From NCBI GenBank assembly GCA_016125225.1, contig WGME01000003.1, positions 434,001-498,000 on the forward strand: DNA of 64,000 bases. The letters run 5' to 3'. Source of the stretch: a bacterium (lineage in GTDB: Bacteria > Planctomycetota > Planctomycetia > Planctomycetales > Planctomycetaceae). Under the pieces are notes generated by a model. It was not told the DNA's origin and searched no databases. It saw only the letters and a program-made list of their open reading frames with translations. The position numbers were made by a program, and so were the translations under genes. Below are positions 7,027 to 24,615 of this stretch, piece after piece; position 1 is the first letter of the stretch; every line of letters begins with the position of its first letter.

Positions 7027-7485
7027 ATGAGCGCCTCCACGTTTGATACCACGGTGGCACATCGTTGGTTTGCCATCGAGTGCAATAATGCGGCCTGGGA
7101 TCTGATCGAAGCTCCGTCACTGTCGCCAGAGGAAGAACTCCGCATGCTCGACTTGGCGCATGCCGCACACTGGCATTGGGGCCAGGTCGGAACGGCCATC
7201 AATCAACAACGGGCTTTGTGCCTGTTGTCCACGGCCTATTTGTGGGTCAGAGATCCGGCCGCCGCAGCCCGGTATGCTCGTGCGTGTCAGCAGATCACGG
7301 AATCACAACCCGACGGCCTCACGCCGTTTGATCGGGCTGCGGCGCTCGGATGCGAGTCCGCTGCTGCCCGGCGATTGAAAGATTCTGCGGCCATCACGCT
7401 GACCAGCGATTTTCAAACCCTGTGTGATACCTTGGACGACTCAGCCGAGCAGGCATTGCTCACGCAGCTTTATGGCGGACAATAG
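7027..7485 (+). CDS. small alpha-helical protein of unknown function
   Basis: 152 residues, no signal peptide or membrane segment. It is all-helical in appearance and alanine-rich, with TPR-like spacing (RALCLLSTAYLWVRDPAAAARYA). Similar short proteins carrying an HAAHWHW-like motif (residues about 45-51) occur in several bacteria and are annotated only as hypothetical; this comes from memory, not a search. It lies 40 bases after the FGE-like lipoprotein gene on the same strand, so the two may be co-transcribed. Confidence 0.72.
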   Translation: MSASTFDTTVAHRWFAIECNNAAWDLIEAPSLSPEEELRMLDLAHAAHWHWGQVGTAINQQRALCLLSTAYLWVRDPAAAARYARACQQITESQPDGLTPFDRAAALGCESAAARRLKDSAAITLTSDFQTLCDTLDDSAEQALLTQLYGGQ

Positions 7486-9373: not shown

Positions 9374-10129
9374 ATGACATCTGAACTCGAAATCCCCTCT
9401 GAGTCGGACAACGAGCCTCACTGGACGGGTGAGGAACTCGAAGCGGCCTATCTGCGCGCCCTCGATGCCCTCGAGGCCGTCGAATCGGATGTGGTAGCCA
9501 CGGCGGAAGAACTGGCGCCGGGACGATTTCAGGACGAGCCCAGCGACGTCGTGGTCGAGCCGGAATCGCCAGCGGAAGCTTTATCCGTCGATGCACAGCA
9601 GGGTGCCCAGGTGTCAGCCGAACAGGTGGTTGAAGCCTGCCTGTTTGTTGGTGGCCCGCCCCTCACGGCCGCAAAACTCACAACGGTATTACGCGGCAGT
9701 TACACCGCAGAGGACGTGGTCACGCTCATTGATCGCATCAATCAGCGGTACACCGCTCAACTTCGCCCGTATGAAATCCGCCTGGGTGATGGGGGGTATC
9801 GGCTGGCTCTCCTCGATGAACACGAGCGCATTCGCCACAAGGTTTATGGTTTGGGCCCCAAAGAAGTGCGGTTGTCGCAGGATGCCCTCGAAGTCCTCGC
9901 GTTGGTGGCCTATCATCAGCCCGTGAATGAGGCCCAACTGGACGGACTCGGCCGGCCGCAATGTGGCGCCACCTTGCGATTGCTGCTGCGGCGTGATTTG
10001 ATTGCTGTCGAGCGTTCGGAGGCTCATCCCAAAGACGTGAAGTACGTCACCACCGAACGCTTTTTGTCGTTGTTTGGTCTGGGTTCATTACGCGATCTGC
10101 CCCGGCCTGATGACCTGCTCTTCAAGTAG
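9374..10129 (+). CDS. scpB: segregation and condensation protein ScpB
   Basis: Accessory subunit of the SMC-ScpA-ScpB condensin complex, acting in chromosome segregation on the nucleoid. 251 residues from the ATG at 9374; TTG 9371 is adjacent. About 85 acidic N-terminal residues precede the paired winged-helix core. The core has VVEACLFVGGPPLTAAKL, DGGYRLALLDEH, LSQDALEVLALVAYHQPV and a final TERFLSLFGLGSLRDLP. It is longer than typical ScpB because of the acidic extension. scpA is not beside it. A histidine kinase gene starts 8 bases after the stop codon. Confidence 0.93.
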   Translation: MTSELEIPSESDNEPHWTGEELEAAYLRALDALEAVESDVVATAEELAPGRFQDEPSDVVVEPESPAEALSVDAQQGAQVSAEQVVEACLFVGGPPLTAAKLTTVLRGSYTAEDVVTLIDRINQRYTAQLRPYEIRLGDGGYRLALLDEHERIRHKVYGLGPKEVRLSQDALEVLALVAYHQPVNEAQLDGLGRPQCGATLRLLLRRDLIAVERSEAHPKDVKYVTTERFLSLFGLGSLRDLPRPDDLLFK

Positions 10130-10136
10130 ACATGCT

Positions 10137-11552
10137 ATGACCTGGCCGCTGCGACTGCAGATTCTCCTGCCCGCGGCCTGTCTGCTGGTGATCGCGGTCT
10201 GCATCAATGCCATTGCCGCTGCACTATGGGCCTCGCATCAATCTGAACTACAGATCACACAACGCCTGCAGCAGGTGGGACAGGTGCTGGCTGAGACCAG
10301 CTTTCCCCGTTCGCCACAGGTGCTCGCCCAACTGCGGCAATTGATTGATGCCGAATTCGCGGTCTGGGATGTGCCCCGCCGACAATTGCAGGTGAGCACT
10401 TTCTCAGAAACTGACGAGAACGAACTGGACGCCGTGTTGGAACAGTCCAAACTTCGCCAGATCGCAGGTGAACCGATCACCATCCGGTTGGGTGGTCAAG
10501 ACTATCAGGGCACCCGCATTGAACCCTCCCGCACGCATGGGTTGGAAGAACTCTGGATTCTTGTCCCCAAAGGGGCCGTGACTGCCGAGCGTTGGACCGC
10601 TGCCTGGCCCGCATTAATTGTGGGGGGACTGTCGCTGCTCCTAATGATTCCCATCGTTTCGCACGTCGCACGGCGGATCGGGCAACGCATTTCGACACTG
10701 CAGCGTCAGGTGGCCGCCGTTGCCGATGGTCAATATGAACCATTGGTGGATGTCGCGGATGTTGATGATGAAATCCATCGTCTCGTGGATGGTGTGAACG
10801 AAATGACCAGCCGTCTGCGGGAATTGCAGCAACGCATCGCCCATACCGAACGCACGCGCTTGCTCGGACAGTTCGCAGGCGGCGTGGCTCATCAATTACG
10901 GAACGCCGTGGCAGGGGCTCGGTTGGCGATCCAACTGCATGAGCGCCGCTGTGCCCATGCCCCGCGTGATGAAAGCCTGTCGGTGGCGTTAAAGCAACTC
11001 AATCTGACTGAACAACATTTGAAAGGCCTGTTGGCACTCGGCAGAAAGACGCCCATCAATCGAACGGAATGCGATCCTGCGGAACTCCTGCATCAGGTGG
11101 TGGAACTGATTGCCCCGATGGCCGATCACCACGGGGTCGAGCTGACGAAATCGATTCAGGGAACACCCTTGCCTGTGACAATGGATCGGGAAGCTGTCGT
11201 CTCGGCTCTGCTGAATTTGATGATCAACGGTCTCGAAGCCGCGGGCCGCAGCGGTCAGATGCGTGTCGAACTGGAAATCGGTACCACGCGCCGGCATGTC
11301 CTTTGGCGGATTGCCGATTCCGGAGCCGGTCCACCTCCCGAACTTGTTGACCACATGTTCGAGCCGTTCCAGACTTCGAAACCCCAAGGAGTGGGTTTGG
11401 GATTGGCTCAGGCCCGGCAGGTCGCCAATGATCATGGAGGGACGCTAGACTGGAAACGGGAGGAGTCCTGGACCCTTTTTGAATTGACCTTACCCTGCTT
11501 TGAGCCACACACACAAAGTCACCGCCATGTGTCGAATTCTGGTCGTCGATGA
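10137..11552 (+). CDS. membrane sensor histidine kinase (NtrB-type output)
   Basis: 471 residues from the ATG at 10137. Transmembrane helices lie at about 6-32 and 155-177 and bracket a periplasmic sensor domain of about 120 residues. HAMP-like linker follows, then the phospho-acceptor box GVAHQLRNAVAG (His252) and an HATPase domain with NLMINGLEAAG, DSGAGPPPE and GVGLGLAQARQVANDHGG. Its stop codon overlaps the start of the NtrC-type regulator gene by 26 bases, so the two almost certainly form a cognate pair. The signal is unknown. Confidence 0.92.
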   Translation: MTWPLRLQILLPAACLLVIAVCINAIAAALWASHQSELQITQRLQQVGQVLAETSFPRSPQVLAQLRQLIDAEFAVWDVPRRQLQVSTFSETDENELDAVLEQSKLRQIAGEPITIRLGGQDYQGTRIEPSRTHGLEELWILVPKGAVTAERWTAAWPALIVGGLSLLLMIPIVSHVARRIGQRISTLQRQVAAVADGQYEPLVDVADVDDEIHRLVDGVNEMTSRLRELQQRIAHTERTRLLGQFAGGVAHQLRNAVAGARLAIQLHERRCAHAPRDESLSVALKQLNLTEQHLKGLLALGRKTPINRTECDPAELLHQVVELIAPMADHHGVELTKSIQGTPLPVTMDREAVVSALLNLMINGLEAAGRSGQMRVELEIGTTRRHVLWRIADSGAGPPPELVDHMFEPFQTSKPQGVGLGLAQARQVANDHGGTLDWKREESWTLFELTLPCFEPHTQSHRHVSNSGRR

Positions 11553-12942
11553 TGAACCCTCAATTGGTTGGGGGTTGCGTGAGTATTTTCAGGATCTGCG
11601 TCACGAGGTCCACGTCACAGGGTCGGTGGAATCGGCCCTGGAAGAGACCACCGCGTTCACCCCGGAAGCGATTCTGCTGGATGTTCGCCTGCCCGGTCGC
11701 GATGGCTTATCGGCACTTCCCGATTTTCGTCAGCGGTGGGGCAATGTGCCGGTGATTGTCATGACCGCCTTTGGCGATCTGAACACCGCCGTTTCGGCCG
11801 TCCAACAGGGAGCCTTTGATTATCTGACGAAGCCTTTTGACCTGGAACAGGCAGGAGCGGCACTTGAACGGGCGTTGTTATCGCAACGACTGCTAACCGG
11901 GGCACCTGCGGTTACGGCTCCATCATCGCCGTTGCTGGGCACATCGCCCGCAATGCAGGAAGTCTTTAAAGCCATCGCCCTGGTCGCCCCCACCGATGTT
12001 TCTGTACTCATCACCGGCGAAACAGGGACCGGCAAGGAGCTGGCGGCCCAGGCAATTCACCGGCATTCGTTGCGCTCAGAGCGACCATTCGTACCAATTT
12101 GTCTCGCGGCTCTTAGCCCGAGTGTGGCGGAAAGCGAACTCTTCGGCCATGTGCGTGGTGCCTTCACGGGAGCCACAGATGACCGACCCGGATTGATCGA
12201 ACTGGCTGACGAGGGGACGCTGTTCCTGGATGAAATTGGTGACACCCCACCGGCATTGCAAGTGAAACTGCTGCGTTTTCTGGAAACGGGCCAGTACTTG
12301 CGGGTCGGCTCCGGGCAGCTTCGTTCCGCCAATGTTCGCATTGTCGCCGCGACGCATCAGCGACTCAGCGATCAAATTGCCGCCGGTGCTTTTCGTGAAG
12401 ACCTGCTGTTTCGCCTGCGGGGTTTTGAACTGCGAATGCCTCCGTTGCGCGAACGGCGGGAAGACATCAAACTGCTGGCGCAAGCTTTCTGTGCCCAAGC
12501 TCGTGCCGATCAGAAGGTGCTGGGCTGGAACGCAGAATTTGAACAGGCGCTGCTGTCGCGGCAATGGTCGGGGAATGTTCGTGAACTGCGATCGGCGGTC
12601 GAGCACGCCGTCATTCTGTCACGCAACGGCCCTCTCTTACCAATGCACTTGCCACCGGAGATGGATGAGGGGGCACGGCCTCTGACATCCAGTGATCTCG
12701 ATCTACAGCACGCCCTGCAGTCGTGGTTGGCCAATCAACTCTCTGCCAGCCATGGCCCTGTTCAGAAGACCGACTTGTACCGAGATTTTCTGCTGGCCAC
12801 AGAGCCGGTGCTCTTCTCTGCCTTGCTCGAACATTGCCGTCAAAATCGTGCCGCCGCTGCCCGCATGCTGGGTGTTGATCGCACGACACTACGGACCAAG
12901 CTCCGCATTTATGGCTTGGACGGTGAATCGAACAGGCATTGA
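11527..12942 (+). CDS. NtrC-family sigma-54-dependent response regulator
   Basis: 471 residues from the ATG at 11527, where homology to receiver domains starts (MCRILVVDDEPS). Receiver with phospho-Asp52 in LLDVRLPG. AAA+ domain with Walker A GETGTGKE (164-171) and the sigma-54 contact loop GAFTGA (211-216). C-terminal Fis-type helix-turn-helix (NRAAAARMLGVDRTTLRTKL). All motifs for opening sigma-54 promoters are intact. It is translationally coupled to the upstream kinase. Targets are unknown; sigma-54 promoter candidates in this window are at 3108, 16191 and 22982. Confidence 0.94.
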   Translation: MCRILVVDDEPSIGWGLREYFQDLRHEVHVTGSVESALEETTAFTPEAILLDVRLPGRDGLSALPDFRQRWGNVPVIVMTAFGDLNTAVSAVQQGAFDYLTKPFDLEQAGAALERALLSQRLLTGAPAVTAPSSPLLGTSPAMQEVFKAIALVAPTDVSVLITGETGTGKELAAQAIHRHSLRSERPFVPICLAALSPSVAESELFGHVRGAFTGATDDRPGLIELADEGTLFLDEIGDTPPALQVKLLRFLETGQYLRVGSGQLRSANVRIVAATHQRLSDQIAAGAFREDLLFRLRGFELRMPPLRERREDIKLLAQAFCAQARADQKVLGWNAEFEQALLSRQWSGNVRELRSAVEHAVILSRNGPLLPMHLPPEMDEGARPLTSSDLDLQHALQSWLANQLSASHGPVQKTDLYRDFLLATEPVLFSALLEHCRQNRAAAARMLGVDRTTLRTKLRIYGLDGESNRH

Positions 12943-13183
12943 ATCTCGAGGCGGCGAACGATTCGCCTGCCGACGAATCTCTCCCCAATGCTGAGAATGG
13001 TGTTGAAATCACTCTCATCCGCAAGTATCAAAGCGGCCGTATTACGGTTTTGTAATCCTGATGCACCGTAACTCTCTCGCGCAACCGGGTGGGGACACCA
13101 CGCATTTGCGTCGGAGACGGTGCGCGCCGTCAGGCCAAAGTTTCATTGAGAACGGTGGCCTTATTCTGCGAAAGGAGTTTCCT

Positions 13184-14197
13184 ATGAAACGGAAGGCATT
13201 CCGTTCCTCCGGATTCACATTGATTGAGCTTCTGGTAGTGATTGCGATCATTGCCATCCTGATTGCACTGTTGTTACCAGCAGTGCAACAAGCCCGAGAG
13301 GCCGCGCGGCGCACCCAGTGCAAAAACCATCTGAAGCAGTTAGGCCTGGCAGTACACAACTATGAATCGAACTTTACGGTGCTGCCTCCGAGCGCTTCGA
13401 TCACATTGCCCGCAAGCGGTGCCAATAATGTGTCGTGGGGAGTGCATGGCCGCATTCTCCCATTCCTTGACCAGGCCACAGTGTTCAACCGCGTGGATCT
13501 GAGTATCGCCTGGGACAATCAGCAGGTGATCAGCGGACTCAAAATTCCGGTCTATGCCTGTCCGAGTGATCCCAAGTCGGATACCTCACGCGACCCGGGG
13601 TCTGGCAAACCGATTCTGTACCCAACGACTTATGGCTTCAGCTATGGCACCTGGTTCGTCTTTGACAACGTCACCGGTGTAACGGGAGACGGGGCTTTTG
13701 CTCCCAATTCCCGATTCAAATTCGCCGACTTTATCGACGGCACTTCAAATACGTTACTGGTCGGTGAAGTCAAAGCTTGGACACCGTACCGCCGCAATGG
13801 TGGTCCACCGACCACGACAGTCCCAGCTAATCGGAGTGAAGCAGAAACCGCCATTGCAAGCGGGGGGGAATTCAAGGACACGGGTCATACGGAATGGCCC
13901 GATGGTCGCGTTCATCATACAGGCATCACAACGGTGCTGAATCCGAATTCGTATTCCGCCTGCTCAAACGGTGCAACGACCTACCAGGAGTGCGACTATA
14001 ACTCGTGGCAAGAGGGCCGGGCAGGCAGCCCCGCTCCGCCAAGCTATGCCATCATCACTTCGCGGAGTTTTCACGAAGGCGTGGTGAACTGCACCTTGGT
14101 TGATGGCTCTGTTCGGACCATCTCGGAGAACATCGATTTGCGTATCTGGCGAGGTTTAGGGACTCGCGCTGGTAGTGAATCTCTGGGAGAATTCTAA
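13184..14197 (+). CDS. DUF1559 protein with type IV prepilin-like N-terminus
   Basis: 337 residues from the ATG at 13184, preceded by a strong AAAGGAG. The N-terminus is a prepilin signal: [20 protein letters not shown], followed by [15 protein letters not shown] and [16 protein letters not shown]. The remainder is the DUF1559 (SBP_bac_10) domain, ending in a [15 protein letters not shown] segment. Such proteins are hugely expanded in planctomycetes and rare elsewhere, which is the strongest taxonomic marker in the window. They are probably processed by prepilin peptidase and exported; their function is not established. The 240 bases upstream hold no other gene. Confidence 0.95.
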
Positions 14198-14731: not shown

Positions 14732-16123
14732 CTACGCCGCCGCGTGATAAACCGGGGCCAACTTCATGATGCTTTCGGCAATCATCATGTAGAGGGGGAT
14801 GCCCAAGGTTACGTTGTAGCTGAAGGTCAACCCGAGCGACGCCGCCAAGGGTAAGGTTGGGCTAGCTTCCGGGATCGCCAGACGTTGCACCGCTGGAACC
14901 GCGATGTAGGAGGCGGCCCCGCACAGCACGGCGAACAGTACGTAAGTTCCAAGATCAAATGGCTGACCAAGGAACAAGCTGTAACAGTGAGCCACACAAA
15001 TCCCCGTGATCGCAAACAGATTCGGGGCCAACAGACCAAAGGCCACGAACTTCCAACCAGCGACACGCAGGTCTTTCAACTTGCTGCAGGCGGAAATGCC
15101 CATTTCCAGCAGGAACAGGCACAGGCAGCCCTGGAACAGCGTATTGAACAAGGCATCGCCGGCAGACGTCACTTTTTCGCCCTGCAACCGGCTGATGAAG
15201 CCGATCGCAATCCCAGCGAACAGCAGGAAAATGCCAGGGTTCAGGAAGACTTCATGCAGCAGTTCGCGATTCAGCCATGACTTCGGCTTATGCTCCAACG
15301 AGGGGTCTTCTGCAGGTGGAACACGTTGTATGGCGATGCGTTCTTCGGCCTTGTGAGCTTCTTCCTCTTCGTAGGTTTCCATGACGGGATCGCTATCGCC
15401 AGGACGGTAGTCGTCTCCACCACCGTGATGATGTCCTTGCTTTCGGGTGGTCCGAGTGGCGACTGCAGTGGCAGTCCCTGAGCCGTATTGGCTATGCACC
15501 GCCTGATGGCCGTTGTGACGGGCTGTTACCGTGACGTCATCAACGGTTTCGTCCAGTTCGCTGTGGGCCAGATGCTGCTGTTTATGATGGGCACGATAAC
15601 CCACTTCTCCGGGCATGTTGCCTTGTGCATCCATGCCATGATTCCGCATCCGCGATACCAGGAACAAAGCCACAAGGCAGCCAGGGATTTCCATCACCGC
15701 GAGCATTACCGGCATGTAGGGAGCGAAAGCCACTTGAGCGGCTGTGAGCACGCCGAGGCAGGTCACAAACGTACCAGCCGAGTCGGAACCGTAGTACCCA
15801 GCAACAGTTGCTGCATCAACTTTGCGCAAAGTCGTGAAGGCCCGCAACAACTGATAGGCCACGATGCCAATAACCAAGTTGGTCAAGAATCCGACAAACA
15901 TGAAACCCAACGCCTGGCCGTACATTTCGGGCTCAAGGCTGGCCAACTCTTCACCACCATGCCAGCCGATCGCGAGGAGCAAATAAATGGTCAGGGCCTG
16001 GTAAGCGGCCTTAGGGAACTCGATCTTTACCCCCAGCAGAGGCACCAGAAACCCAGCGTAAAAGAACAACAACAACGGCTTAAACATGTTGTGCAGGACG
16101 TTGTTCAAAAACTCGTGCAGCAT
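14732..16123 (-). CDS. sbtA: sodium-dependent bicarbonate transporter, SbtA family
   Basis: Inner-membrane protein of the SbtA/DUF897 family, known in cyanobacteria for sodium-coupled bicarbonate uptake. 463 residues from the ATG at 16123, where the family N-terminus begins (MLHEFLNNVLHNMFKPLLL). Two hydrophobic halves (about 10-158 and 288-463) are visible; YYGSDSAGTFVTCLGVL and GAASYIAVPAVQRLAIPEA match conserved segments. Between them is a hydrophilic loop of about 125 residues, unusually rich in His (KQGHHHGGGDD). It is about 90 residues longer than the cyanobacterial protein, mostly because of this loop. No adjacent sbtB-like PII gene. A sigma-54 promoter candidate lies upstream. Confidence 0.88.
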   Translation of the reverse strand: MLHEFLNNVLHNMFKPLLLFFYAGFLVPLLGVKIEFPKAAYQALTIYLLLAIGWHGGEELASLEPEMYGQALGFMFVGFLTNLVIGIVAYQLLRAFTTLRKVDAATVAGYYGSDSAGTFVTCLGVLTAAQVAFAPYMPVMLAVMEIPGCLVALFLVSRMRNHGMDAQGNMPGEVGYRAHHKQQHLAHSELDETVDDVTVTARHNGHQAVHSQYGSGTATAVATRTTRKQGHHHGGGDDYRPGDSDPVMETYEEEEAHKAEERIAIQRVPPAEDPSLEHKPKSWLNRELLHEVFLNPGIFLLFAGIAIGFISRLQGEKVTSAGDALFNTLFQGCLCLFLLEMGISACSKLKDLRVAGWKFVAFGLLAPNLFAITGICVAHCYSLFLGQPFDLGTYVLFAVLCGAASYIAVPAVQRLAIPEASPTLPLAASLGLTFSYNVTLGIPLYMMIAESIMKLAPVYHAAA

Positions 16124-16190
16124 CGGAATCTTTCTCGTCAAATGAGAGAATGGCGACGGCGTCCCAGTCGCGTGACGATTGCCGACATTT

Positions 16191-16205
16191 GCAGTCTGGG
16201 TGCCA
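16191..16205 (-). promoter_or_regulatory. candidate sigma-54 promoter for sbtA
   Basis: The minus strand reads TGGCAC-CCAGA-CTGC, followed by AAA. The -24 element is a perfect match to TGGCAC and the -12 element differs from TTGC in one base; spacing is exact. It lies about 70 bases upstream of the sbtA ATG, in the region shared with a divergent histidine kinase that precedes an NtrC-type activator. Confidence 0.6.
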
Positions 16206-16442
16206 ATCTCATACTGACGTTGTTGTAAGTTGCAGCGTGGTGCGATGTTATTTATCTCCAGCGTGCATAAGATCAGTTCTTGCCGTGACATCGGGACAGC
16301 CGAGGCTGGCAGCTTGGGATGGTTTCGTAAGGTTTCTTAAAGTTGCTGCATGGAAACTATCTGGCCACGTCTTGGGCACAATTGGCTAAAACGTAGACAC
16401 GGCGATTCATCAGGATTTCATGGTCCCTGAAGAAATCTGTCC

Positions 16443-17945
16443 ATGGAACAGAGTCCCATGCGTATCGCAGGAGCGATGATCACCATCAGTGCGCTGCTGT
16501 TCGGCTTGGGCTTCTGGGCCGCATGGAACGTACAGCGTCAGCAGGTGTTGGGCTCTGAGATGATCGCCCGTGAAGTGCACGGCATGATTGCCGCGCAGGA
16601 CCTGTATCTCGACTTGCGTGAGATCCGCAACCATTTGCAGCAGTATCTACGGACGCAAGATCAGGGCCAATTGGTTGCTGTCGACCAACTCAGCAGCCGC
16701 TTCAATGCCCGCATGCATCATATGTCTCAACTGGTTCGTACAGAACGGGAAAGCGAACAACTCGAAATCGTGAATCTGGGAATCCAGCAGTTTCTGCAGG
16801 AGTATGCGGCACTTCGTTCTCAAAGCACCTCCGATCAGAACTCCATGAATCTCGACGTTGGCAATTTGATCGATGATGTGCTTTCGCCACGCATTCTGGA
16901 CCCGGCACGAGCCTTGGTCGAACAGAATCGGCAAGTTGTCGATCGCACGAATCAAACTAACCGTCAGACCACGAACCAAACTCGTCAGGCGTTTCTACTG
17001 CTTGGCGTTTGTGGTGGGGGAGCCGGTTTGGTGTTAGGAGTGGGGATAGCTCGCCGCATCAGCCGGTCGATTGTACAACTCGATGTCACGATTCAAGGCG
17101 TTGCCGGCCATCTGTACGAAGTTCTGGGACCTGTTGAGGTCCAGCGTGTCGGTGGACTGCAGGAACTGGAAGTCGGACTCAATGAGTTGCGGGAACATAT
17201 CGCTACCCTGGTAGAGCGCCTCAGGCAACGGGAACTTGAAGTACTACGTGCCGAGCAACTCGCCGCTTTAGGTCAATTGGCTGCAGGTGTGGCACATGAA
17301 CTCCGCAACCCATTAATGCCGATGAAAATGCTCGTTCAGAAGGCGCTCAGCCGCGATGAGGACGGTCAGTTGAGCGGCCAAGCGTTGCACATCGTGGCAC
17401 AGGAAATCGGCCGATTGGAGGAGAAGATCCAGGAGTTCCTCGACTTTGCACGACCTCCCACGCTCGAAAAAGAACAGGTCGACCTGCGTGATCTGATTCA
17501 GCAGACCTGCGAACTGATAAGTTTGCGTGCCGATCGACAGAGAGTCGAATTCCGCGAGTTACTCCCCTCTGCCCCCTGCTGCTTACAGGTGGATCAAACG
17601 CAAATGCGACAGGTGGTGTTGAACCTGCTGTTGAACGCCCTCGATGCCCAGTCCGATGGCGGAGTCGTTGAAATTGAATTGAGCAAACAACTGAGCCATC
17701 CCGAAGATGAGTCCGCAGGACCACTCGTTCGCAATGTCGTGTTGTCTGTGCGAGATGAAGGCTCGGGCATCAGTGATGAGATCATGCCACGGTTGTTCGA
17801 ACCCTTCGTCAGTTCCAAGGAATCGGGGACCGGATTGGGATTATCGATCTGCCGCCGGATTGTCGAAGCTCATGGCGGACAGATCGTGGTGCGGAATCGG
17901 CCTGTGCAGGGAACCGAGTTTCTGGTCACATTGCCGATGACATAA
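16443..17945 (+). CDS. membrane sensor histidine kinase with four-helix-type periplasmic domain
   Basis: 500 residues. Transmembrane helices at about 8-29 and 183-203 enclose a helical, Gln-rich sensor region of about 150 residues that resembles four-helix-bundle chemosensor domains. HAMP/coiled-coil linker, then GVAHELRNPLMPMKM with phospho-acceptor His285, and the ATPase motifs NLLLNALDAQ, DEGSGISDE and GTGLGLSICRRIVEAHGG. The next gene, 37 bases on, is an NtrC-type regulator, evidently its partner. Divergent from sbtA, which has a sigma-54 promoter candidate in the shared region. Confidence 0.92.
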   Translation: MEQSPMRIAGAMITISALLFGLGFWAAWNVQRQQVLGSEMIAREVHGMIAAQDLYLDLREIRNHLQQYLRTQDQGQLVAVDQLSSRFNARMHHMSQLVRTERESEQLEIVNLGIQQFLQEYAALRSQSTSDQNSMNLDVGNLIDDVLSPRILDPARALVEQNRQVVDRTNQTNRQTTNQTRQAFLLLGVCGGGAGLVLGVGIARRISRSIVQLDVTIQGVAGHLYEVLGPVEVQRVGGLQELEVGLNELREHIATLVERLRQRELEVLRAEQLAALGQLAAGVAHELRNPLMPMKMLVQKALSRDEDGQLSGQALHIVAQEIGRLEEKIQEFLDFARPPTLEKEQVDLRDLIQQTCELISLRADRQRVEFRELLPSAPCCLQVDQTQMRQVVLNLLLNALDAQSDGGVVEIELSKQLSHPEDESAGPLVRNVVLSVRDEGSGISDEIMPRLFEPFVSSKESGTGLGLSICRRIVEAHGGQIVVRNRPVQGTEFLVTLPMT

Positions 17946-17982: not shown

Positions 17983-19431
17983 ATGCCGCTGCTGCTGATT
18001 GTTGATGACGAGCCCAACATCGCCTTCTCGATCAAGGAATGTCTGGACTTGCCGCACTTGGAGTTCATCACAGCGTCGACGGCACGCCAGGGAATTGCGC
18101 TCACACGCGAGCAGCAACCCGATGTGGTCTTGCTGGATATTCGATTGCCCGACCTTTCAGGGCTCGATGCCTTTGAGAAAATTCGAGAATTTGATCCTCG
18201 GTTGCCCTGCATTCTGATGACCGCCTTCTCACGAACGGAAACCGCAATCGAAGCCATGCGCCGCGGTGCGTTCGACTATCTGGTTAAGCCCGTCGATGTG
18301 ATGCAGTTGCAGAACGTGGTGGCCAAGGCTTTGGAAGTCTCCCGCCTGAGCCGCAAACCAGCCGTCGTGGAAACCGACGAAAGCCTCACGCCGGCCGATC
18401 ACATCGTGGGCACATCAGCCGCGATGCATGATGTGTATAAAGCCATCGGTCGTATTGCTCCGCAGGATTCGACCGTCCTGATCCTCGGGGAAAGTGGCAC
18501 CGGCAAGGAACTGGTAGCCCGAGCCCTGTACCACTACAGCCAGCGATCCCGGATGCCTTTCCTGGCCATTAATTGTGCGGCGTTACCGGAAACGCTACTG
18601 GAAAGCGAACTCTTTGGACATGAACGTGGGGCCTTTACCGGTGCTGATCAACGCCGCATCGGGAAGTTCGAACAAGTCTCTGGCGGAACGATTTTTCTCG
18701 ATGAAATCGGTGACATGAGCCCCGCCACGCAGGCCAAAGCCTTACGGCTGCTGCAGGAACAACGGTTCGAGCGCATCGGCGGAAACATTACGATCGAAAC
18801 CGATGTCAGAATTATCGCGGCGACAAACCGCGATTTGAATGAACTAGTCGCAGAAGGGAAGTTCCGACAGGATCTGCTGTACCGCTTGAACGGCTTCACC
18901 ATTTCGATCCCCCCCTTGCGCGATCGCAGTGACGATATTCCGGTGCTGACCGACCACTTCATTCGATGCTTCAATGCCGAATTGGGCCGCAATATCACGA
19001 CGATGACCGACGAGGCCCGTCAGTTTCTGCAGAGTCATGACTGGCCCGGGAATGTTCGGGAGCTGGAAAGTGCTGTTCGGTTTGCCATGGCTCATGCCGC
19101 TGGCAATGTGATTACAGCCGATTGCCTGCCCGCCTCATGCCAGGGCGGATCGGAGCGGTCGCCATCGATGAGTGACCTTGAAGCCCTGATCCAACAGCTA
19201 CTGGCCAAGAACACCACGGGAATTTATGAACGCATTCTGCAGGAAGTCGATCGAATTGCATTAACTGCCGTGATGCGGCACACGAATTTTAATCAGGTTC
19301 AAGCCGCTCTGCTGTTAGGTCTGTCGCGGATGACGTTGCGGAGTAAGTTACGAGCCGTCGGACTACTGAGCGCGAAAACCGACACCGCAACAACCCTGGC
19401 GATAGACTCAAGCGAAGACAAAGTGGGTTAG
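17983..19431 (+). CDS. NtrC-family sigma-54-dependent response regulator
   Basis: 482 residues. Receiver domain with Asp52 (LLDIRLPDLSG), AAA+ ATPase with Walker A GESGTGKE (169-176), sigma-54 loop GAFTGA (216-221) and Walker B IFLDEIGDM. C-terminal Fis-type DNA-binding segment (NFNQVQAALLLGLSRMTLRS). Immediately follows its histidine kinase gene. It resembles the regulator at 23152-24615 more closely than the one at 11527-12942: both share GAFTGADQRRIGKFEQ. Confidence 0.94.
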   Translation: MPLLLIVDDEPNIAFSIKECLDLPHLEFITASTARQGIALTREQQPDVVLLDIRLPDLSGLDAFEKIREFDPRLPCILMTAFSRTETAIEAMRRGAFDYLVKPVDVMQLQNVVAKALEVSRLSRKPAVVETDESLTPADHIVGTSAAMHDVYKAIGRIAPQDSTVLILGESGTGKELVARALYHYSQRSRMPFLAINCAALPETLLESELFGHERGAFTGADQRRIGKFEQVSGGTIFLDEIGDMSPATQAKALRLLQEQRFERIGGNITIETDVRIIAATNRDLNELVAEGKFRQDLLYRLNGFTISIPPLRDRSDDIPVLTDHFIRCFNAELGRNITTMTDEARQFLQSHDWPGNVRELESAVRFAMAHAAGNVITADCLPASCQGGSERSPSMSDLEALIQQLLAKNTTGIYERILQEVDRIALTAVMRHTNFNQVQAALLLGLSRMTLRSKLRAVGLLSAKTDTATTLAIDSSEDKVG

Positions 19432-22752: not shown

Positions 22753-22902
22753 TCAAAACAACAGGACCAGCAGTAATAGAATCAATAAGACTGTGCCCAA
22801 GCCACCGGATGGGCCATACCCCCAACCTCGTGAATAAGGCCAGGCTGGCAGTGATCCCAGAACCAGCATCAGCAACAGAATCAGCAGCAGCAATTCCATC
22901 AT
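22753..22902 (-). CDS. DUF3309-family small membrane protein
   Basis: A 49-residue gene. Translation gives two hydrophobic stretches, MMELLLLILLLMLVLGSLP and GTVLLILLLLVLLF, around the signature WPYSRGWGYGPSGGLG. That motif is diagnostic for the DUF3309 family of tiny bacterial membrane proteins of unknown role. AAGGA precedes the double ATG (22902 and 22899). A sigma-54 promoter candidate lies about 80 bases upstream, and the two following genes on the strand are a 93-residue membrane protein and a hybrid kinase. Confidence 0.85.
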   Translation of the reverse strand: MMELLLLILLLMLVLGSLPAWPYSRGWGYGPSGGLGTVLLILLLLVLLF

Positions 22903-22981
22903 CTCATCCTTTCCGCACTGCCGTCCGTGGCCTCATGACTGCGTTCCCTCGTGCTCAAAGCTGACAATATGCGGGAGAAAC

Positions 22982-22996
22982 GCAGCTTGCGTGCCA
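22982..22996 (-). promoter_or_regulatory. candidate sigma-54 promoter for the DUF3309/hybrid-kinase operon
   Basis: The minus strand reads TTTGGCACG-CAAG-CTGCG. All seven bases of TGGCACG match, spacing is exact, and the -12 element CTGC has one mismatch to TTGC. Transcription would start near 22970, giving a leader of about 70 bases before the DUF3309 ATG. This is the best sigma-54 match I found; an NtrC-type activator gene lies directly upstream on the same strand. Confidence 0.65.
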
Positions 22997-23151
22997 AAGA
23001 CGACAGCGAGGGTGAAAGAATCGCATTCGTAACCGCAACCCATTTAAAGCAATTGGGTTACGGCCACCAGTGATGGCAAGGATTTCAACGCAGCGTCGGA
23101 TGGGAGACCGCGGCGGGCTCAGAGTGGTCGGCGAACGAACAGACGCAGCTG

Positions 23152-24615
23152 TCAGTCGATCCGGACGTCCCGATCAACGGTGATGCCAAAGGCTGCGATG
23201 CGATCACGGACTTTCCCGCGCGTAATGCCGAGGATTTCCGCAGCACGACTTTGATTGCCTTGCGTTTCGCGCAGCACCCGGGTCAGCAGGAACCGCTCCA
23301 TCACTTCCAGGGCCTCGGCGTATAAGTCGGTACTGTTCTGCTTCAACCGCCGATCGATGAACTGCCCCAGATCACTATCAGGGAGACCTTGCGAATCCCC
23401 GGACGATGTGGCATCGCTGCTCGATGAACCATCCGTCGTTCCCTTCCGAACCTCGGCGGGCAGGAAGTCAGGAACGATCACTGTTCCTGTCGTGTGCAGA
23501 ATCGCGTTCCGCACCACGCTCTGCAATTCGCGAATGTTTCCTGGCCAACTGTAACTGGTCAGCAGTTCCAGCGCAGTCGGAGAAATTCCCTCCAGATCCG
23601 GGCGATTCAATTCCATCGCGAACCGAGAGGTGAAGCGTTGTAACAGCGGAGGAATATCTCCCGGCCGTTCGCGCAGCGGCGGAAGACGCACGGTGATGGT
23701 ATTCAGGCGATACAGCAAGTCTTCGCGAAACTCGCCGTCTTCCACCATTTGTTCCAAGGGACGATGAGTGGCCGCCACGATGCGGACGTTAGTTGATAAG
23801 GTCGTGTTACCCCCCACACGTTCAAATTTCTGATCCTGCAGTAACCGCAGAACTTTGCCTTGAACCAGCAGCGACATGTCGCCGATTTCATCGAGGAACA
23901 ACGTCCCCCCGTTGCACTGCTCGAACTTGCCGATGCGACGCTGATCGGCCCCAGTAAACGCTCCCTTTTCGTGACCGAAGAGTTCGCTTTCCAGCAGATT
24001 ATCGGGTATGGCGGCGCAGTTGATGGCCATGAAACATTCATTGGCTCGGCGACTGTGCTGATAGATAGCTCTCGCCACCAGTTCTTTGCCAGAACCGCTT
24101 TCCCCACGAATGAGCACCGTCACATCTTGTGCGGCAACGCGGCCTATGGTTTTGTAGACTTCCAGCATGGCCGGGCTGCTGCCGACGAACGAGTCTCCCG
24201 GTCCTTCCTGCGTCCCGCGTGTGGGAATGGCCACCGGCACACTCATGAGCCGGCGTGTTTCCGCAGCCCTGGCCACCAAGTCGTTGAGTTGTCCAAGATC
24301 TAGCGGTTTTCGCAGATAGTCAAACGCGCCGAGCTGCATGGCCTCAATCGCGGTGTCGCTTTCAGCATCCGCCGTAACAAAGATCACGGGCAGCTTGCGG
24401 TCCAAGGCGCGGATTTGAGCAAACAACTCCAGCCCGGAGATATCGGGCAGGCGAATATCGAGCAGAACTACATCGGGACGTTCTGAACCCACGAGCGCCA
24501 AGCCGGTGGCACCATCGGAAGCCGTGATCACGTTGAGCTGAACTTTTTCCAACGAGCGGGTGACCAGGTGATGCACACTGCGATCGTCGTCGATGACTAA
24601 AACCGTTGTCGACAA
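23152..24615 (-). CDS. NtrC-family sigma-54-dependent response regulator
   Basis: 487 residues. Receiver with Asp53 (VLLDIRLPDISG), AAA+ domain with Walker A GESGSGKE (171-178), GAFTGA (218-223), Walker B LFLDEIGDM and a C-terminal Fis-type helix-turn-helix (QGNQSRAAEILGITRGKVRD). It has no kinase gene in immediate tandem. The hybrid kinase at 19441-22320, two small genes downstream on the same strand, is the nearest candidate donor through its HPt domain. The 250 bases after its stop carry the sigma-54 promoter candidate for the DUF3309 gene. Confidence 0.94.
   Translation of the reverse strand: MSTTVLVIDDDRSVHHLVTRSLEKVQLNVITASDGATGLALVGSERPDVVLLDIRLPDISGLELFAQIRALDRKLPVIFVTADAESDTAIEAMQLGAFDYLRKPLDLGQLNDLVARAAETRRLMSVPVAIPTRGTQEGPGDSFVGSSPAMLEVYKTIGRVAAQDVTVLIRGESGSGKELVARAIYQHSRRANECFMAINCAAIPDNLLESELFGHEKGAFTGADQRRIGKFEQCNGGTLFLDEIGDMSLLVQGKVLRLLQDQKFERVGGNTTLSTNVRIVAATHRPLEQMVEDGEFREDLLYRLNTITVRLPPLRERPGDIPPLLQRFTSRFAMELNRPDLEGISPTALELLTSYSWPGNIRELQSVVRNAILHTTGTVIVPDFLPAEVRKGTTDGSSSSDATSSGDSQGLPDSDLGQFIDRRLKQNSTDLYAEALEVMERFLLTRVLRETQGNQSRAAEILGITRGKVRDRIAAFGITVDRDVRID

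Follow-up and report, generated by a model that had tools for sequence, protein, structure and literature searches.

A candidate sigma-54 promoter and a divergent NtrC-type pair at the sbtA gene of a planctomycete

Introduction

The locus considered here raises the question of whether a bicarbonate-type transporter gene in a planctomycete is transcribed by sigma-54 RNA polymerase and, if so, whether the kinase/NtrC pair that faces it supplies the activator and reads the supply of inorganic carbon. The control of bicarbonate uptake is known from LysR-type regulators in autotrophs, and to our knowledge the control of cyanobacterial SbtA is not of the sigma-54 kind. A sequence-only reading of the window (the whole stretch of 64,000 nucleotides analysed, from a planctomycete genome of 6.35 Mb) had pointed to a sigma-54 promoter candidate in front of sbtA and had proposed an inorganic-carbon or pH-related signal for the neighboring pair; its observation is confirmed in what follows, and the main parts of its interpretation find support.

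A sigma-54-type element upstream of sbtA

The sbtA gene (14732..16123, minus strand) encodes a 463-residue member of the Na+-dependent bicarbonate transporter superfamily (Sbt_1; PF05982, 331.5 bits). Its start at 16123 follows from alignment with orthologues, the frame up to 16291 being an open-frame extension, and a ribosome-binding-like GAGAAAG can be read before the start codon at 16130..16136 (minus). Farther upstream lies the putative -24/-12 element TTGGCACCCAGACTGCA (16190..16206, minus), recognized by its matrix match and by its conservation before orthologous sbtA genes, whose GG and GC doublets stand 10 bases apart, the canonical gap, and which departs from TGGCACN5TTGC by one mismatch. 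Its core, TGGCACCCAGACTGC (minus strand, 16205-16191), is the candidate originally singled out, and the 70 bases then given as its distance to sbtA were right, 67 bases separating the extended element from the aligned ATG. Sigma-54 transcripts begin about 11-12 bases past the -12 GC, and this promoter geometry would place the sbtA transcription start at 16179..16180 (minus). A search of 16100-16460 gave no sigma-70-like promoter, and the genome holds a single PF04552 match for rpoN (213.7 bits). The accompanying remark that cyanobacteria lack sigma-54 fits a PF04552 control in which 4 of 14 genomes match, Synechococcus elongatus not among them.

How much weight can the letters of the element bear? 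At 16.1 bits it is the top position on both strands of the window, as judged by a 17-position matrix of general sigma-54 promoters that was not trained on planctomycetes; the origin of the matrix matters less because a search without any sigma-54 prior, given below, finds the same element. Within the 64-kb window, TGGCACN5TTGC with at most two mismatches has 85 matches vs 81 expected, and YTGGCACN5YTGCW with at most one mismatch has 3 vs 2.4 expected, the sbtA element being the only exact match of the three. Across the whole genome TGGCACN5YTGC occurs at 51 sites, most of them inside ORFs, and the reversed-pattern control also yields 51; the sbtA element ranks 17th, and the genome-wide scan suggested earlier thus does not make it stand out. 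Motif counting, with no excess in the window or the genome, was rejected as proof. The element's sequence alone is not beyond chance, and its conservation before orthologous sbtA genes is.

Other sigma-54-like elements came to light in the same genome. The second strong one in the window, TTGGCACGCAAGCTGCG (15.0 bits; 22981-22997, minus), lies between a third NtrC-type gene (23152-24615, minus) and a small, hydrophobic ORF whose start is near 22900 and which we take to resemble DUF3309. Elsewhere (L221, G000:C12:84754-87768), CTGGCACGCGATCTGCA (18.2 bits) stands 105 bases before a dnaK-like gene, in keeping with the enrichment of chaperones that a recent survey reports for Planctomycetia (PMC12316311).

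Conservation of the element across sbtA loci

SbtA of the window's type occurs in 33 of the 170 genomes of the window's family and, in a sample of 397 genomes of the class, in 72; the named near relatives of the window's sbtA are Schlesneria assemblies and Pan216. We fetched 100 regions, most of them around sbtA, and examined 101 loci including the window, of which 83 have an N-terminal sbtA match and were counted; the other 18 had no N-terminal match that exceeded 48% identity and were left out. Wider sampling for sbtA loci to be used as a held-out set gave no additional sbtA in the 170 family genomes. An element was counted as present if it reached at least 10 bits within 200 bases upstream of sbtA. 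By this definition 23 of 41 family loci are positive, or 17 of 33 once similar upstreams are grouped. The control, other genes from the hand-chosen loci with the Sbt and SulP clusters left out, yields 14 of 254; Fisher's test gives P 1.3e-10 when the family is compared with it and 5.4e-7 when all 83 loci are. Conservation before orthologous sbtA genes was what the sequence-only reading had staked its promoter on beforehand, and in the window's family the promoter withstood that test. The opposite strand of the family upstreams has the element in 0 of 41, and outside the family it occurs in 3 of 42 sbtA loci. A first split of the loci, 35 and 48 by open-frame length, had given 19/35, and 40 hand-chosen loci (33 clusters) in which the aligned start looked real had given 20/33 representatives; since this choice was made after the first split had been seen, the count was repeated on all 83 loci.

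The position of the element is likewise steady: of the 23 family positives, 21 have it at -83 to -134 relative to the start, and L039 and L040 have it 174-176 bases before the start. In the prior-free search, which compared 90,112 gapped trinucleotide pairs between the 33 representatives and 716 control upstreams, the top four pairs all describe this same element (GCA-N7-TGC, TGG-N9-TGC, GGC-N8-TGC and CAC-N6-TGC; best log10 P -7.9). A chance resemblance, with sbtA on an ordinary promoter, would agree with the equal genome-wide counts of sites and reversed controls and with the near-expected counts in the window, but the steady position and the recovery of the element by a search free of priors make it very improbable. 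The sbtA promoter is very probably of the sigma-54 type.

The planctomycete sbtA loci L181 and L182, from named contigs, and the non-planctomycete loci L184-L186 have no element. L184 and L185 are Mycolicibacter and Mycobacterium contigs whose SbtA is 55-56% identical to planctomycete SbtA, and lateral transfer is possible there.

The divergent kinase/NtrC pair

Divergently from sbtA, as had been noted, run the genes for a 500-residue sensor histidine kinase (16443..17945, plus) with a predicted helical periplasmic sensor domain, HisKA and HATPase_c, and for a 482-residue NtrC-type response regulator (17983..19431, plus) with receiver, sigma-54 AAA+ and Fis-type HTH domains (PF00072, PF00158, PF02954). 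The regulator carries GAFTGA at residue 216, and both this motif and the HTH helix are conserved. The regulator's domains and the linkage of the genes, like the promoter element and its conservation, are read directly from the DNA.

Such a pair adjoins sbtA in eight loci. It is divergent in seven (the window, L042, L045, L049, L114, L115 and L117), and in the eighth, L113, sbtA sits between the kinase and a partial NtrC gene. Seven of these eight sbtA genes have the element, the divergent L042 having no good one (5.2 bits). In L129, from the Pan216 region, the genes for SbtA, kinase and regulator follow one another in tandem, and the element there scores 11.7 bits. Beyond the family just three loci bear an element, L114, L117 and L129, and they are the three in which sbtA adjoins both a kinase and an NtrC gene; L118, with an NtrC homologue about 1 kb off and no kinase, has no element (4.6 bits).

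Within the family, 18 of the 35 loci without an adjacent pair still carry the element, and therefore adjacency is not required, the activator at those loci being distant or a different one. The same count can be turned into an argument that sbtA is sigma-54 dependent in the window too but answers to another NtrC-type protein, the divergent pair being a neighbor by chance, and the window does encode three such regulators, the other two at 11500-12942 and 23152-24615. Against this, adjacency recurs in several families and with three transporter types, and element and pair go together outside the window's family, which leaves a different activator for the window's sbtA improbable. Activation of sbtA by the adjacent pair is, on this pattern of linkage, the probable arrangement.

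Several features of the neighborhood deserve mention in their own right. The window has another kinase/NtrC-type pair (10074-12942, plus), which precedes a prepilin-like gene (13061-14197), presumably of DUF1559. At L115, the kinase has a sigma-54-like element of its own, CTGGCATTCAGATTGCA (15.8 bits), 72 bases before the ORF start at 7177, and both divergent promoters there may be of the sigma-54 type. An OmpR-type two-component system, so assigned by PF00486 in L066, occupies the divergent side of sbtA in L066, L124, L138, L143, L151, L156, L159, L160 and L161; none of the eight scorable loci has the element, nor is there one within 400 bases, and the OmpR-type system in place of the NtrC pair looks like an apparent regulator swap.

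A candidate activator site

Between the divergent genes lie three phased repeats, TGGCCA (16362-16367), TGGGCA (16373-16378) and TGGCTA (16383-16388), to which no strand is assigned. They precede the expected sbtA transcript start by about 180-210 bases and the kinase start by 55-80, and could also serve autoregulation; the sites of NtrC-type regulators commonly lie about 100-200 bases before the promoter. Among all 64 palindromic hexamers, TGGCCA is the commonest in 11 intergenic regions beside the pair, with nine copies in 5.3 kb (1.69 per kb; 0/1000 shuffles), compared with 0.39 per kb in controls and 1.28 per kb upstream of other sbtA genes (26 representatives), a pattern noticed after the fact in Gibbs output. 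L045 and L048 have three copies 13 and 11 bases apart within differing surroundings. On a three-copy score the window reaches 16 of 18, and a score of at least 14 is found in 7 of 37 regions (L045, L048, the window, L042, L113, L114 and L117, six of them pair-adjacent) vs 5 of 232 control regions; of five pair-adjacent loci that had played no part in setting the spacing, three score at least 14. Searches for a binding site by exact dyads and by palindromic Gibbs sampling gave nothing beyond shuffles. The repeats are a candidate regulator site with some support, less than the promoter has.

Homologous pairs beside other transporters

Is the arrangement peculiar to sbtA? Among the best 30 kinase matches in the class, 11 have SbtA or SulP within 1.5 kb (7 with SbtA, 5 with SulP and one with both), all of them among the first 16, and L275 alone of 18 further kinase loci adjoins a SulP gene. 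Two more of the best 30, L109 and L110 (extended as L259 and L260), have the kinase/NtrC pair directly after a gene for a 764-residue SulP permease that carries a C-terminal carbonic anhydrase domain, as judged by reading the sequence and by a tblastn match (L259 2694-4985 and L260 2729-5020, both minus); both have AGGGCATGGAGTTTGCT (12.2 bits) at -227. Where SulP adjoins a pair, candidate elements are found in L169 (TTGGCATGGCGATCGCA, 14.8 bits) and L171 (TTGGCACGTCGCGTGCC, 11.6 bits), weaker ones in L170 (9.1 bits) and in L188 (7.5-8.6 bits; genome G422, with SulP divergent from the pair), and none in L113. SulP relatives away from a pair score 14.1 (L190), 10.7 (L193) and 10.1 bits (L205); those of L189, L191, L192 and L038-L043 stay below 9 bits, and more distant SulP genes reach at most 9.5. 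An NCBIfam scan of L176 (plus strand, X at stops) gave no match.

Genes of carbon chemistry accompany sbtA itself in some relatives. A beta-carbonic anhydrase (PF00484) and an SbtB-like P-II protein (PF00543) are added in L052 and L121 and, outside the family, in L159 and L161; in L052 and L121 the carbonic anhydrase gene lies between sbtA and the sbtB-like gene, and both loci have the element. Carbon-linked kinases cluster in the kinase tree (6 changes vs 11.5 when shuffled, 0/500, with L109 and L110 unlabelled); their grouping as a single clade was rejected by the AU test. The recurrence of homologous pairs beside other bicarbonate-type importers looks like a small inorganic-carbon regulon and not a one-off.

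Substrate and signal

The only PDB relative of the window's SbtA is SbtA itself (7cye, E 1.6e-21). The part of PMC8352866 that bears on the ligand describes docked bicarbonate in contact with Ser114, Tyr140, Ser324 and Ser327. These align in the window with Ser115, Leu141, Ser405 and Ala408, residues that vary little within the subfamily, and two of the four ligands are thus replaced (Tyr140 by Leu and Ser327 by Ala), the alanine being present in 93 of 93 matched loci. No sbtB-like gene stands beside the window's sbtA; an sbtB-like cluster is present in 24 of 101 gene-called loci, and the genome's own three P-II genes are grouped together, away from sbtA. The only RuBisCO-type match in the genome is a RuBisCO-like protein, and autotrophy is therefore unlikely; the imported carbon may serve carboxylations of a heterotrophic metabolism, or pH balance. 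This protein (L258 533..2227, minus; 564 residues) has a C-terminal stretch that looks cupin-like by eye.

The SulP proteins of L038 and L169 match the BicA model first and third (BicA being, we presume, the protein of PDB 6ki1) and score 161.2 and 137.4 bits, below the NF050096 cut-off of 880, and the BicA, DauA and general sulphate-permease models score alike, all below their cut-offs.

What the kinase might read can be approached through its N-terminus, a predicted helical bundle (mean pLDDT 76.9) whose model resembles four-helix periplasmic sensor domains. Foldseek with this model gave no match at E <= 0.001; the best rows are helical-bundle sensors, among them the nitrate receptor McpN and NarQ, although helical bundles score well generally. 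NarQ binds nitrate, and direct sensing of bicarbonate by the kinase is a hypothesis along such lines. The segment around EVHGMIAAQDLY and MREIR is common to most carbon-linked kinases and less so in others. Arginines of the sensor helices were rejected as a carbon-specific trait, such residues occurring in unlinked kinases too.

The most serious alternative accepts the sigma-54 promoter and changes the cue: alkaline pH, sodium, or envelope or general nutrient stress would drive transporters that serve pH or anion homeostasis. The two altered ligand positions in the SbtA subfamily, the similar, sub-threshold fit of SulP to several permease models, and a sole RuBisCO-type protein with an extra C-terminal stretch in a probable non-autotroph all lean this way; the links to carbonic anhydrase, to SbtB-like P-II and to the SulP-carbonic anhydrase fusion point instead to HCO3-/CO2, and we consider such a different cue unlikely, if less so than a different activator. 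The presence of homologous pairs beside SulP permeases and the fusion makes it more likely that the pair responds to a signal tied to inorganic carbon or pH; for inorganic carbon in particular, we would put the chances at about even.

A proposed circuit and its relation to known systems

Taken together, the best explanation of the locus as a whole, and in our judgment a likely one, is that a two-component regulator of the NtrC family activates bicarbonate uptake through sigma-54. The membrane kinase would read the inorganic-carbon supply (low bicarbonate or CO2, or a matching pH) through its helical-bundle periplasmic domain and phosphorylate the NtrC-type regulator, which would bind the TGGCCA-like repeats; with the intervening DNA looped, its GAFTGA-bearing AAA+ domain would open the promoter at 16190-16206 for sigma-54 RNA polymerase, and SbtA would then import bicarbonate. 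The phosphotransfer, the signal, the direction of control and the substrate are steps that we infer.

The circuit shares with NtrB/NtrC and ZraS/ZraR a kinase, a receiver-AAA+-Fis regulator, distant (here candidate) binding sites and a -24/-12 promoter. It differs from both in its target, a bicarbonate-type transporter instead of nitrogen or metal genes. Unlike NtrC proper, the regulator scores 480.5 bits, below the TIGR01818 ntrC cut-off of 558.6, and unlike AtoS and ZraS, the kinase falls far below the cut-offs of their models. As in the cyanobacterial SbtA-SbtB system, the transporter belongs to Sbt_1, keeps the equivalents of Ser114 and Ser324, and has an sbtB-like P-II gene near it in many relatives; unlike there, the equivalents of Tyr140 and Ser327 are replaced and the window's sbtA has no SbtB beside it. 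In Acidithiobacillus ferrooxidans, according to the relevant part of PMC6458275, the sulP/can2 genes pair a SulP permease with a carbonic anhydrase and their transcripts drop as CO2 rises; the same text discusses carbon genes under CbbR-type (LysR) control (PMC6458275). That association of SulP with carbonic anhydrase is shared here, whereas the NtrC-type pair, the sigma-54-like elements and the fusion of the two proteins (L259 and L260) are not.

Studholme and Dixon reportedly treated the enhancer-binding proteins of Pirellula, and COG3329 and COG0659 are, as we understand them, SbtA and SulP. A 2025 survey of sigma-54 regulons by matrix scan, Planctomycetia included, lists MscS, chaperones, UspA, CsrA and regulators, and its main text, as far as accessible, makes no mention of bicarbonate, carbonic anhydrase, inorganic carbon, COG3329 or COG0659 (PMC12316311). 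In the literature searched, with most subscription journals outside its scope, we found no report of sigma-54 control of SbtA and no paper joining the NtrC family, sigma54 and a bicarbonate transporter; the accessible text of PMC2607301 treats SbtA and NtrC separately, and that of PMC5328954 and PMC2754498 has no bearing on sigma-54 control of SbtA. The known parts are thus those of a two-component sigma-54 circuit, and what is new, with no report found, is the bicarbonate-transporter target class.

Conclusion

A broader proposal, tentative and somewhat short of an even bet, is that planctomycetes possess a dedicated inorganic-carbon regulon in which related kinase/NtrC pairs, whose helical-bundle sensor would detect bicarbonate or CO2 itself in the way that NarQ detects nitrate, drive SbtA, SulP and the SulP-carbonic anhydrase fusion through sigma-54, without apparent CO2 fixation by RuBisCO. 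If true, it would be the first case of sigma-54 control of bicarbonate uptake and of a two-component bicarbonate sensor. A sigma-54/NtrC circuit of this kind, in bacteria that seem to be heterotrophs, would bring carbon under the best-studied nitrogen-type switch; it would give planctomycetes a response to carbon supply together with a candidate two-component sensor of bicarbonate or CO2, and it suggests what one group of this phylum's NtrC-type pairs may do.
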